A stretch of 64,000 bases of DNA from Blattabacterium sp. (Blattella germanica) str. Bge (GTDB lineage: Bacteria; Bacteroidota; Bacteroidia; Flavobacteriales; Blattabacteriaceae). Below are positions 11,166 through 60,322 of the stretch, in pieces; within the stretch, counting starts at the first letter, position 1, and every line of letters starts with the position of its first letter. Below the pieces are notes generated by a model that saw only the letters and a program-made list of their open reading frames with translations, did not search any database and had not been told where the DNA came from. The position numbers were made by a program, and so were the translations under genes. The stretch is from NCBI RefSeq assembly GCF_000022605.2, contig NC_013454.1:496001-560000 (forward strand). Direction: 5' to 3'.

Positions 11166-11795
11166 ATGCATTTAACTTCTTATGAAAAGGAAAAAATTCT
11201 TCTGCATATGGCTGGAGAATTGGCGAAAAAACGTTTAAAAAGAGGATTAAAATTAAATTATCCTGAATCTTTAGCTTTAATCACTCATTATGTCATGGAA
11301 GGAGCACGTGATGGAAAAACGGTAAAAGAACTTATGTATGAAGCTGGAAATATTCTGAATGATGAACAAGTTATGGATGGAGTATATGAATTACTTAATA
11401 ATGTTCAAATAGAGGCAACTTTTCCTGATGGGACAAAATTAGTTACTATACACAATCCTATTAAAAAAAATAGAAAAGAAAACTCTAATCTAATTCCAGG
11501 TCAATATGATCTTCTTGAAGAAGATATTATTTTATTACCTGGAAGACCTCGTATAGAAAGAGTAGTATCTAATACTGGAACTCGTCCTATTCAAATAGGA
11601 TCTCATTTTCATTTTTATGAAACGAATCCTGCTCTTCTTTTTGATAGAGAAGGAACTAAAGGATATAGACTGGATATTCCTTCTGGAAGATCTGTCCGTT
11701 TTGAGCCAGGAGAAACCAAAAAAGTCATATTAGTAGAAATAGGAGGAAGCAAAAAAATTTATGGATTTTCAGGAAAAGAAAATACAACAATATGA
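11166..11795 (+). CDS. ureAB: Urease subunit gamma/beta fusion
   Basis: A 209-residue fusion. Residues 1-100 are the gamma subunit ([41 protein letters not shown]), followed by a short linker and the beta subunit ([39 protein letters not shown]). Together with UreC it forms the nickel enzyme that hydrolyses urea to ammonia and carbamate. The fusion resembles the Helicobacter-type UreA. Its stop overlaps the ureC start by 4 bp (ATGA). In cockroach symbionts urease is linked to nitrogen recycling from host uric acid; that role here is inferred. Confidence 0.96.
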
Positions 11796-13498
11796 AAAAA
11801 ATAGACAGAGAATCTTATGCAAGTATGTATGGGCCTACAAAAGGGGATAGAATTCGTTTAGGAGATACATCTTTATGGATTGAAATAGAAAAAGATTATA
11901 CTATTTATGGAGATGAATGTGTTTTTGGAGGAGGAAAAGTCATTAGAGATGGAATGGGGCAGCATCCATTTGCTACAAAAAATGAAGGAATTTTGGATTT
12001 AGTATTGACTAACGCTATCATTGTTGATCATTGGGGAATTGTAAAAGCAGATATTGGAATAAAAAATGGAATTATCGTTGGAATAGGAAAAGCTGGAAAT
12101 CCATATTTTATGGATGGTGTTACTCCAAATATGTATATTGGAGCAGGAACAGAAGTTATCTCTTCTGAAAATCTAATTGTAACAGCGGGAAGTGTAGATA
12201 GTCATGTTCATTACATATGCCCACAATTATTTGAAGTGGCGTTAGAAAATGGAACAACTACTATTATCGGGGGAGGATCAGGTCCAGCAACTGGAACTAT
12301 AGCCACGAATTGTACTTCTGGGGTATGGAATATTCAAAGAATGTTAAAAAGTACAGATCATATTCCTATCAATTTTATTTTTCTTGCTAGTGGAAACAGT
12401 TCTCATCCTGAAGCTTTAATTGAACAAATAGAAGCAGGTGCAGGAGGATTAAAAATCCATGAAGATTGGGGAAGTACTCCTTATGTTATAGATCAATGTT
12501 TAAATGTTTCTGAAAAATTAGACGTACAAGTCAATATCCATACGGATTCACTAAATGAATCAGGCTATATAGAGGATACGTTAAAAACGTTTAAAGGAAG
12601 AACGATTCACACTTATCATACAGAAGGAGCTGGTGGAGGACATGCCCCTGATTTATTGAAAGTTATATCCTTTTCTAATATCTTACCTTCATCTACAAGT
12701 CCTACTATGCCTTACACTAGCAATACCATAGATGAACATTTAGATATGTTAATGATTTGTCATCATTTAGATTGTAATTTGCCAGAAGATATTGCTTTTG
12801 CTAAATCGCGTATCAGATCTGAAACTATTAGTGCCGAAGGAGTTTTACATGATATGGGTGCTATTAGTATGACGAGTTCTGATTCCCAAGCTATGGGGAG
12901 AATAGGAGAAATAGTGAAACGGACTTGGCAAACAGCTGATAAGATGAAAAAACAAAGAGGATATCTGAATGAGGACAATCCAAAAAATGATAATTTCAGA
13001 GTAAAAAGATATATTTCTAAATATACCATAAATCCTGCTATTACACATGGAATATCAGAATATGTAGGTTCTATAAACATTGGAAAAATGGGAGATTTAG
13101 TATTGTGGAAACCCTCTTTTTTTGGAGTCAAACCAGAATTAGTCATAAAAAGCGGAATGATTGTATACGCTAGTATGGGTGATCCTAATGCGACCATTCC
13201 TACACCTCAACCATTCATGTATAGAAAAATGTTTGGTTATTTTGAACCTAAATTGAGCTGTCTTTTTGTTTCAGCGTGTGCTATCAATCATGGTTTTTTT
13301 GAAAAAAATGAAATTAAAAAACAAATAAAAATAGTAAAAGGATGTCGTTCTTTATCTAAAAAAGACATGGTATTAAATGAAAAAACTCCAAACTTAGAAG
13401 TAGAACCAAAAACCTATAATGTTTATATAAACGGAGAAAAGATTATTTCTAATCCTTCTGATATTTTACCACTAGCTCAAAGATATTTTTTATTCTAA
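11792..13498 (+). CDS. ureC: Urease subunit alpha (catalytic)
   Basis: A 568-residue protein of normal UreC length. The active site is intact: the nickel-binding HxH in [12 protein letters not shown], the lysine to be carbamylated in [13 protein letters not shown] near residue 220, nickel histidines in [12 protein letters not shown] and [15 protein letters not shown], the catalytic histidine in [14 protein letters not shown], and the nickel aspartate in [15 protein letters not shown]. It overlaps ureAB by 4 bp. The nickel-insertion genes ureD, E, F and G do not follow: the next gene is tRNA-Leu on the other strand. They must be elsewhere for the enzyme to work. Confidence 0.98.
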
Positions 13499-58398: not shown

Positions 58399-60087
58399 TT
58401 AATTCAATTGATCTGTAATGCACCCTTTGGAAGCTGGAGACACCATTTTGGTATATTTGTATAAATATCCTTTTTTTACCTTAAATGAAGGGGGAATCCA
58501 TGATTTTCTTCTTTTATTTATCTCCTCATCTTTCACTTCAAGAGTAATGGTATTATTTTCCGCATCTATTTTAATAAAATCTCCATTTTTAATCAAAGCA
58601 ATCAATCCTCCAGACTGTGCTTCTGGAGTTATATGCCCTACTACAAAACCGTGTGATCCTCCTGAAAATCGACCATCTGTAATAAGAGCGACTTCTTTTC
58701 CTAATCCAGATCCCATAATATAAGATGTTGGCTTTAACATTTCTGGCATTCCAGGCCCTCCCTTTGGTCCGACATATCTGATGACAATTACAACTCCAGG
58801 CAAAATTTTATTTTTCAAAATAGCTTGATTGGCTTCTTCTTCTGAATCAAAAACATTAGCTTTTCCACGAAAAATAGTACCTTCCTTTCCAGTAATTTTA
58901 GCTATGGCTCCTTCAGGAGAAAGATTTCCATATAAAATTCTGATATGTCCGTTTTTTTTGATAGGGTTATCTAAAGAATGAATAATTTTTTGATTGAAAG
59001 TTATATTAGGAACATTTTTCATATTTTCAGATAATGTTTTTCCAGTAACGGTTAGACAATCTCCTGATAATATTCCTTCGTTTAATAGATATTTTATAAT
59101 AACAGGCATTCCACCTATATACATATGAATATCTTCCATTAAGAAAATTCCACTTGGTTTTAAATTTCCAATGAGAGGAACTTGATTGCTAAGTCTTTGA
59201 AAATCTTTTAAAGAAAAATCAATATTTGCCGATTTAGCTATCGCTAAAAAATGTAAAACTAAATTGGTTGAACCACCTAAACACATGGCTAATTTTACCC
59301 CATTTTCTATAGAAGATTTTGTTACGATATCTTTCGGTTTTATTCCTATTTCCAATAGTTTTTTAATATATATAGAAACTTCTTCACACTCTATTTGTTT
59401 CTTTTCACTTGTAGAAGGAGATGAAGAAGAATAAGGGAGCATCATTCCCATCGTTTCCAAAGCAGAAGCCATAGTATTTGCAGTATACATTCCTCCACAA
59501 GCTCCTGGTCCTGGACAAGAATTTTTAACAATATTTTTGTACTCTTTTTCAGTAATTTGGAAAGTATTTTTTTTTCCTAGAGCTTCAAAAGAAGAAACAA
59601 TGTCTAATTTTTGACCATTATAATGACCTGAAGAAATACTTCCTCCATACACTATAATAGATGGACGATTCAATCTAAGTAAAGCTATCATAACTCCTGG
59701 CATATTTTTATCACATCCAGGTATGGCAATTATTCCATCATAATGATGTGAATCAATTACTGTTTCTATGCTATCCGCTATCAATTCTCTGGAAGGCAAA
59801 GAGTACCTCATTCCTGGAGTACCCATAGTAATTCCATCACTGACTCCAATAGTAGTCAATTGAAATCCTACTAAATTTTGAGTAACAACTGATGATTTGA
59901 TTTTTTTTGCCATTTTATCTAAATGCATGTTGCAAGGATTTCCCTCGTACCAATTGCTAACTATTCCTATTTGAGCTTTACAAAAATCGGATTCTTTCAT
60001 CCCTGTAGCATATAACATAGCGTGTGCTGCTGGCAAATCGGGTTCTTTAGTTATGTTTTTACTAAAATCGTTAATTCTTTTTTTCAT
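58399..60087 (-). CDS. ilvD: Dihydroxy-acid dehydratase
   Basis: 562 residues. Iron-sulfur cysteines in AIPGCDKNMPGVMIALLRLN and KNSCPGPGACGGMYTANTMA, and LMEDIHMYIGGMPVIIKYLL and GLGKEVALITDGRFSGGSHG. It dehydrates dihydroxy acids to the keto acids of valine and isoleucine. First structural gene of ilvDBNCA; the leader upstream has an attenuator-like arrangement (60103-60177). Gap to ilvB is 4 bp. Confidence 0.97.
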   Translation of the reverse strand: MKKRINDFSKNITKEPDLPAAHAMLYATGMKESDFCKAQIGIVSNWYEGNPCNMHLDKMAKKIKSSVVTQNLVGFQLTTIGVSDGITMGTPGMRYSLPSRELIADSIETVIDSHHYDGIIAIPGCDKNMPGVMIALLRLNRPSIIVYGGSISSGHYNGQKLDIVSSFEALGKKNTFQITEKEYKNIVKNSCPGPGACGGMYTANTMASALETMGMMLPYSSSSPSTSEKKQIECEEVSIYIKKLLEIGIKPKDIVTKSSIENGVKLAMCLGGSTNLVLHFLAIAKSANIDFSLKDFQRLSNQVPLIGNLKPSGIFLMEDIHMYIGGMPVIIKYLLNEGILSGDCLTVTGKTLSENMKNVPNITFNQKIIHSLDNPIKKNGHIRILYGNLSPEGAIAKITGKEGTIFRGKANVFDSEEEANQAILKNKILPGVVIVIRYVGPKGGPGMPEMLKPTSYIMGSGLGKEVALITDGRFSGGSHGFVVGHITPEAQSGGLIALIKNGDFIKIDAENNTITLEVKDEEINKRRKSWIPPSFKVKKGYLYKYTKMVSPASKGCITDQLN

Positions 60088-60102
60088 GAAATGTTTTATA
60101 AA

Positions 60103-60159
60103 TCAAAAAGCCCTACCGGTTAGTAGGGATAAAAAATAACACTCAATTTGAATAGTCAT
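60103..60159 (-). CDS. Putative leader peptide of the ilv operon
   Basis: ATG complementary to 60157-60159, TGA at 60103-60105. Product MTIQIECYFLSLLTGRAF, 18 residues, with two Ile and three Leu, among them UUA and a CUA-CUA pair. It lies 15 bp upstream of ilvD and overlaps two hairpins. No clear Shine-Dalgarno site is seen, which is normal for Bacteroidota. That it is translated is inferred from position and composition only. Confidence 0.5.
   Translation of the reverse strand: MTIQIECYFLSLLTGRAF
60105..60128 (-). terminator. Terminator-like hairpin in the ilvD leader
   Basis: On the minus strand CCCTAC (60128-60123), loop TAACCG, GTAGGG (60116-60111), then CTTTTT. A 6-bp, GC-rich stem with a T-run is conspicuous in this AT-only spacer. 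Its 5' arm contains the Leu codons CUA-CUA of the leader peptide, so a ribosome stalled there would keep the hairpin from forming. Confidence 0.6.
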
Positions 60160-60177
60160 TAAAAATATCTATTCAAA
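60147..60177 (-). promoter_or_regulatory. Second hairpin of the ilvD leader, start codon in its loop
   Basis: TTTGAATAG (60177-60169) pairs exactly with CTATTCAAA (60155-60147), a 9-bp stem with a 13-base loop. The leader ATG (60159-60157) lies in the loop and the first codons in the 3' arm. It may control access of ribosomes to the leader or pause RNA polymerase. Confidence 0.5.
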
Positions 60178-60285
60178 AAATGAATTATATAATATGCAAA
60201 AATATGAAAAAAATAGATTATATAAAAGCGTTTTTTAGGTATTTATTTTTATAATATTATTATTTTTTGATTAATTAATGAATAT

Positions 60286-60322
60286 ATTGTAAAGTTTACA
60301 ATCATAAATTCTATCTGCAACG
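60286..60322 (-). promoter_or_regulatory. Candidate promoter of the ilv operon
   Basis: CGTTGCA (60322-60316) followed 24 bases later by TACAAT on the minus strand. The same CGTTGCA with a downstream TATAAT occurs before thrA (11122-11128) and marC (18261-18267). Bacteroidota promoters use a TTG element near -33 and an AT-rich -7 element, which this arrangement could represent. The 354-bp spacer 60088-60441 holds nothing else I can name besides the leader. Confidence 0.3.

Follow-up and report, generated by a model that had tools for sequence, protein, structure and literature searches.

Organization of the ilvD locus

The window, i.e. the whole stretch of 64,000 nucleotides analysed here, is part of the 641-kb genome of Blattabacterium and carries the genes for branched-chain amino acid synthesis in the order ilvD-B-(N)-C-A. 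NCBIfam assigned ilvD, ilvB, ilvC and ilvA, and the 104-aa frame at the position of ilvN had no NCBIfam match at 1e-10. A gene for Rho is present in the genome. The features of the ilvD gene and its leader are given in Table 1. An earlier note on this DNA had described an attenuator-like leader in front of the operon, and the sequence items it relied on (an 18-codon frame, a 9-bp repeat, CCCTAC-N6-GTAGGG and T5) were all recovered on the minus strand where it had placed them.

A total of 49 genomes of the genus, including that of the window, were searched for ilvD. The gene is present in 45 of them; it was not found in G007, G026, G036 and G060, is fragmented in G010 and G013, and its frame ends at 412 aa in G071. 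The leader alignment comprises 35 sequences, ten of the 45 loci (L025, L027-L033, L049, L050) being omitted as they have no recognisable stem. Like the T-box and other Rfam leaders, the ilvD leader would be a cis-acting RNA preceding an amino-acid operon, but it matched neither the T-box nor any other Rfam leader or riboswitch family at gathering thresholds. No description of an ilv leader in Blattabacterium was found in the literature searched. Elsewhere in the window (11941-12236, minus strand) the Rfam family 5_ureB_sRNA was matched with 46.4 bits (threshold 40) opposite a long plus-strand frame (11792-13498), and this match may merely mirror conserved coding sequence.

Table 1 Features of the ilvD gene and its leader (positions in the window)
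Feature	Position	Strand	Basis
ilvD, leading gene of the ilvDBNCA run	58399-60087	minus	NCBIfam
Conserved spacer from T tract to ilvD ATG	60088-60104	minus	Identity 0.797
18-codon frame MTIQIECYFLSLLTGRAF and stop, not conserved, probably fortuitous	60103-60159	minus	ATG 60159, TGA 60105-60103
T5 tract 3′ of hairpin 2 (one C between)	60105-60109	minus	Identity 0.914 over six post-stem columns
Hairpin 2, CCCTACTAACCGGTAGGG, conserved terminator-like stem (CCCTAC-N6-GTAGGG)	60111-60128	minus	Conservation, fold prediction
Hairpin 1, TTTGAATAG (60177-60169) / CTATTCAAA (60155-60147), perfect 9 bp, loop 13	60147-60177	minus	Inverted repeat
CATATTATATAATT, strongly conserved block directly 3′ of the -7 box, about where the RNA is expected to start	60183-60196	minus	Identity 0.921 for the TTATATAATT columns
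TATTTTTG, predicted Bacteroidetes-type -7 promoter box of ilvD (TAnnTTTG)	60197-60204	minus	Mean pairwise identity of box columns 0.958, 34 leaders
AT-rich conserved block 5′ of the promoter box	60232-60302 (approximate limits)	minus	Conservation across the genus
Upstream Ile/Leu-rich frame MIVNFTIYSLINQKIIIL, 5′ of the promoter box, lacks coding conservation	60249-60305	minus	ATG in three genomes, N/S 3.75

A predicted promoter heads a long leader

In 304 kb of the window's own genome the motif TAnnTTTG occurs at 5.66 per kb in the region 20-48 nt before gene starts and at 1.49 per kb farther upstream. Five altered motifs reached 0.25-1.23 per kb near the starts, but TAnnTTTA came to 5.17. 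The distribution indicates that TAnnTTTG marks promoters in the Blattabacterium genome. A scan for sigma-70-type promoters was not informative (63 found, 59.6 expected). The ilvD box is separated from the ATG by 117 nt, which makes for a long leader. A transcription start downstream of 60128, named in the earlier note as an observation that would speak against its model, is unlikely in view of the conserved predicted TAnnTTTG box at 60204-60197. Within the conserved AT-rich block at 60183-60196 a palindrome, ATTATATAAT, was seen.

A conserved terminator-like hairpin precedes ilvD

Hairpin 2 consists of seven pairs, four of them G-C, followed by C and T5, and has a probability of 1.00 in the predicted ensemble of the window. 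It shows the sequence hallmarks of an intrinsic (Rho-independent) terminator, namely a stem containing G-C pairs and a U-rich tract directly after it, and as in an attenuator this hairpin and its U tract are located between the predicted promoter and ilvD. Its short stem and the brief run of U (U5 followed by GA) speak against a terminator function.

A strict scan revealed an intact stem of the CCCTACT/AGTAGGG type with a T tail at 31 of the 45 ilvD loci of the genus. Since the hairpin is degenerate at four loci (L004, L014, L018, L043) and absent from ten, it is dispensable in some lineages. The distance from stem to ATG is 23 nt in the window and 20-26 nt at 30 of the 31 intact loci, the exception being L045 with 33 nt. 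Pairwise identity of the stem amounts to 0.915 vs. 0.638 at the fourfold sites of ilvD (33 genes; L034 omitted), and for 240 deep pairs to 0.924 vs. 0.588; these fourfold sites have just ~13% G+C. Pairwise identity is 0.515 in the leader between the post-promoter block and the stem, hairpin 1 included, and 0.368 in the loop of hairpin 2, whose length ranges from 4 to 30 nt. Judged by these alignments, hairpin 2 is under selection, and a constant stem with a variable loop is more in keeping with an RNA hairpin than with a DNA operator of fixed spacing. Pairing is retained in 96.3% of 245 cells (35 sequences). Of two double changes, one falls in the otherwise broken stem of L018; the evidence for conservation is mostly invariance. 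In L034 (genome G013) a hairpin 2 of six pairs persists, yet ilvD is fragmented and the promoter block unrecognisable. Apparent AT-rich inverted repeats were noticed near the position of hairpin 2 in the stem-less loci L050, L032 and L049.

The IlvD tree (42 proteins and two outgroups; L033, L034 and L048 omitted), whose bootstrap values are not settled, has the stem-bearing L026 as the first branch of the genus (fork support 80/80) and groups eight stem-less loci in one clade (98/96), with a separate loss in L025. The contigs of the eight-locus clade measure 561-586 kb, and stem-bearing contigs at least 613 kb among the sizes shown. Off the ilvD locus the stem pattern was matched once in G030 and once in the window's own genome (G000:C1:275347). 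The latter match was rejected, as it lies inside a coding frame of 767 aa, which we take to be that of a penicillin-binding protein.

Terminator-like hairpins are scarce in the genome

Terminators were surveyed in the same 304 kb (the window and L081-L092) with simple longest-ORF gene models. Hairpin 2 is the sole terminator-like hairpin with at least four G-C pairs outside coding frames and tRNAs in this sample. L087:544-581 (five G-C pairs) and L085:4885-4909 (four) were discarded, being located inside frames of 224 and 214 aa. AT-rich candidates with three G-C pairs outside clear coding frames are L084:9237-9282 (-14.1 kcal/mol, both strands) and L084:2862-2902 (-8.9 kcal/mol). Intergenic matches numbered five in one scan, three of them in tRNA genes or their complement, and eight in another. 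The density of intergenic matches is 0.35 per kb in the window's own genome and 3.87 in the free-living G039, for which 36 terminator matches were counted in 80 kb. Two further Blattabacterium samples, G015 and G020, gave 0.83 and 0.97 per kb, with some matches that are by eye plainly coding or rRNA sequence. Hairpins followed by T at 28 gene ends of the window were no better than in shuffles (mean -1.19 vs. -1.27 kcal/mol). By these counts the genome is terminator-poor, not terminator-free.

Leader fold and antiterminator pairing

The leader of the window folds with -22.4 kcal/mol (z -2.46; 3 of 200 shuffles equally good), and hairpins 1 and 2 form together in the predicted structure. At hairpin 1, homologous pairing was found in 88.4% of 233 cells (21 chosen sequences). 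In 18 of the 35 leaders this stretch folds at a z value near -2.0 or lower, and 17 of these leaders belong to the window's own clade. Hairpin 1 seems to be partly beyond chance.

No 2:3 antiterminator was predicted for the window (z -0.8), and a search for antiterminator pairing in the window and its nearest relatives L002, L007 and L041 was likewise negative (z -1.0 to 1.3). In the sister clade, segment 2 (TTCAAGTTYGG) is able to pair with the 5′ arm of hairpin 2 in 11 of 15 leaders (L004, L005, L006, L008, L009, L012, L014, L040, L042, L044, L045; z -2.4 to -4.3); the low z of L023 is due to another pairing and was not counted. In L004 and L014 this pairing displaces hairpin 2, whose probability falls to 0.01 and 0.00. 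Covariation was not detected in the segment 2 pairing (0 pairs altered on both sides), and there is no evident switch for it unless a ribosome sits on segment 1. The proposal of the earlier note that attenuation proceeds without a 1-2-3-4 series fits the close relatives of the window, but not the sister clade.

Reading frames of the leader

The ATG of the 18-codon frame is situated in the loop of hairpin 1, and its stop codon precedes the start of ilvD (ATG at 60087) by 15 nt. None of the 34 other aligned leaders has an ATG at this start position. ATG frames run over the stem in 9 of the 35 leaders; among the 34 leaders compared with shuffles they amount to 8, against 10.0 ± 2.4 in the shuffles, and are distributed over all phases. 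In L002, L007 and L041 the stem is not crossed by any ATG frame. Differences in the length of T runs move the phase of the frame among the leaders. A conserved 18-codon leader peptide was rejected, because its start ATG is unique to the window among the aligned leaders, the number of frames is at shuffle level and the phases are mixed. The expectation that stem and frame are both conserved among relatives was therefore borne out for the stem and failed for the frame, and sensing of Leu or Ile by this peptide is left without support.

With GTG and TTG starts included, 28 of 34 leaders have a frame over the stem, more than the 19.9 ± 2.8 of the shuffles (0 of 200 as high). We do not take this excess as support for a peptide. 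The shuffles ignore relatedness among the genomes, the number is pushed up by GTG/TTG letters that genomes share, and the frames are spread 18/14/14 over the three phases. The upstream frame (60305-60249) has an ATG in three genomes only (L001, L013, L047) and shows no sign of being coding (N/S 3.75 vs. 4.34 expected from the sites; 31 rows, with L015 and L019 out of register). It was rejected as a conserved peptide for its few ATGs and its non-coding substitution pattern. An apparent likeness of this frame to MRVNNVILSIIILLCQL of G039 and to MKVNFNIISVV of L068 was noted. In the 300 nt before ilvD, ATG frames rich in branched-chain residues attained p ≤ 0.05 in just one of the 34 Blattabacterium loci tested (11 of 45 were omitted). 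Across the genus no such ORF rises above chance, and the conserved ORF typical of attenuators, in which codons for the amino acids of the pathway serve regulation, was not found.

ilvD leaders of free-living relatives

Among free-living ilvD loci, leader ORFs rich in branched-chain residues (p ≤ 0.05) were detected at 6 of 25 (up to 340 nt). In G039 the leader MRVNNVILSIIILLCQL is followed by a terminator 28 nt before ilvD. Further leaders are MKLRVVIISVIVIIIIPW (L055), MNRQIINIISIIIVVIISHR (L060) and MKVNFNIISVVIIIPSGG (L068), each with a terminator-like hairpin on its 3′ side, as is also the case for MMQISIIITSVIVVNV... of L076 (p 0.08). At other free-living loci neither a leader peptide nor a terminator was seen. 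Several free-living Flavobacteriales have an attenuator at ilvD, composed of an Ile/Val/Leu-rich leader peptide and a terminator. By eye, a block resembling TTGAAYATSATA recurs between the attenuator terminator and ilvD in the free-living Flavobacteriaceae L052, L055, L056, L057, L060, L063 and L068; possibly it is a second leader element.

Discussion

We put it at about an even chance that hairpin 2 is the terminator of a former attenuator whose peptide sensor is gone and which now acts as a fixed partial throttle on ilvDBNCA. RNA polymerase would start near 60190, hairpins 1 and 2 would fold independently of each other, and hairpin 2 would serve as an intrinsic terminator in an ilvDBNCA leader of ~105 nt. 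In the lineage of the window a constant fraction of the transcripts would then end near 60105 and cap ilv expression. We infer that transcription terminates at hairpin 2, that it does so for part of the transcripts and that amino acids bring about no response. The arrangement would derive from a free-living ancestor among the flavobacteria that had a leader-peptide attenuator; Blattabacterium would have lost the peptide sensor and retained the terminator by selection. Hairpin 2 is probably descended from an attenuator of the free-living type, since several free-living relatives have Ile/Val/Leu-rich leader peptides and terminators before ilvD. Its homology to these terminators rests on position, as its sequence differs from theirs. 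The attenuator-like leader of the earlier note is supported in part, by the conserved terminator-like hairpin, the long promoter-headed leader and the attenuators at ilvD in free-living relatives; sensing of Leu or Ile by the proposed 18-codon peptide is not supported.

It is unlikely, though to be taken seriously, that the attenuator is still regulated without the proposed peptide, by re-pairing of RNA segments 1-2-3-4 with the help of a non-AUG leader, the upstream frame MIVNFTIYSLINQKIIIL, the speed of RNA polymerase or a trans factor. The segment 2 pairing of the sister clade, which displaces the terminator in two leaders, the excess of ATG/GTG/TTG frames, the highly conserved blocks adjoining the promoter and the resemblance of the upstream frame, in places, to the L068 leader would agree with such regulation. 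Against it, the pairing is missing from the window and its nearest relatives and shows no covariation, the GTG/TTG frames have no common phase, and the upstream frame lies 5′ of the promoter box, in addition to its rare ATG and its non-coding-like substitutions. A fixed partial terminator is favoured because covariation is absent and nothing obvious would flip the sister-clade pairing without a ribosome. We regard as rather improbable the more specific case of a peptide-free attenuator that senses the supply of branched-chain amino acids, its terminator being turned on and off through re-pairing of the RNA or through a factor that acts at the conserved 5′ block; if true, ilv expression would stay responsive in a symbiont thought to lack such control.

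Selection on hairpin 2 could also be for something besides termination. That it is a structural part of the 5′ UTR and no terminator, which might leave the translation start accessible or stabilize the mRNA, would suit the near-constant distance to the ATG, the conserved spacer and the other apparent inverted repeats at stem-less loci (TCTAATCTATATAGATTAGA in L050, TTATTCC..GGAATAA in L049), but we consider it unlikely, as conservation of the T tract (0.914) matches that of the stem and terminators precede ilvD in free-living relatives. The mechanism of the earlier note, in which hairpin 2 cannot form while a ribosome is held up at CUA-CUA (Leu-Leu) in MTIQIECYFLSLLTGRAF, is very improbable, and so is its variant that the frame aids reinitiation at ilvD, a role proposed for Bacteroidetes leader genes 11-14 bp upstream (PMC4833913). 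Frame and codons do exist in the window, but the frame statistics given above speak against them, and a ribosome at the stop codon would cover the same arm, leaving no clear off state. A neutral relic in slow decay would account for the loss or degeneration of hairpin 2 at 14 of 45 loci; it can hardly be reconciled with a stem identity far above that of the fourfold sites, poor in G+C as these are, and of the adjoining leader, and we give it almost no credence.

Leader-peptide (ribosome-mediated) attenuators are known from the ilv operons of enterobacteria. The Blattabacterium locus resembles them in having a promoter, a leader RNA and a terminator hairpin ahead of the first gene of a branched-chain operon; it differs in that a conserved Ile/Val/Leu leader peptide is absent and that no convincing antiterminator was found in the close relatives of the window. 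The spacing of terminator and ilvD is similar to that of the attenuator in G039 (23 vs. 28 nt). For amino-acid operons of Flavobacterium psychrophilum, a member of the same bacterial class, structured 5′ regions have been described and leader-peptide attenuation has already been suggested (PMC9723704); a leader peptide was inferred there, whereas in Blattabacterium the terminator part alone would be left. For the reduced symbionts Buchnera and Serratia symbiotica, loss or erosion of leader peptides and attenuators has been reported (PMC3091783, PMC3229713, PMC5013485). Blattabacterium would share with these insect symbionts the loss of leader peptide and attenuation along with genome reduction, but would differ from them in that the terminator half is kept under selection. 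Since Buchnera keeps terminators too, 55 conserved ones being reported (PMC3164680), retention of a terminator in a symbiont is not odd by itself. What stands out is a terminator kept without its peptide in a terminator-poor genome.

A leader frame in a single genome is weak evidence for attenuation, and caution is advisable in similar cases. The distribution over the genus suggests an order of attenuator decay, in which the sensor was lost first, while the terminator was selected through much of the genus and then lost in the clade with smaller genomes. It can now be tested whether obligate symbionts hold the expression of costly pathways at a fixed ceiling after regulation has been lost.
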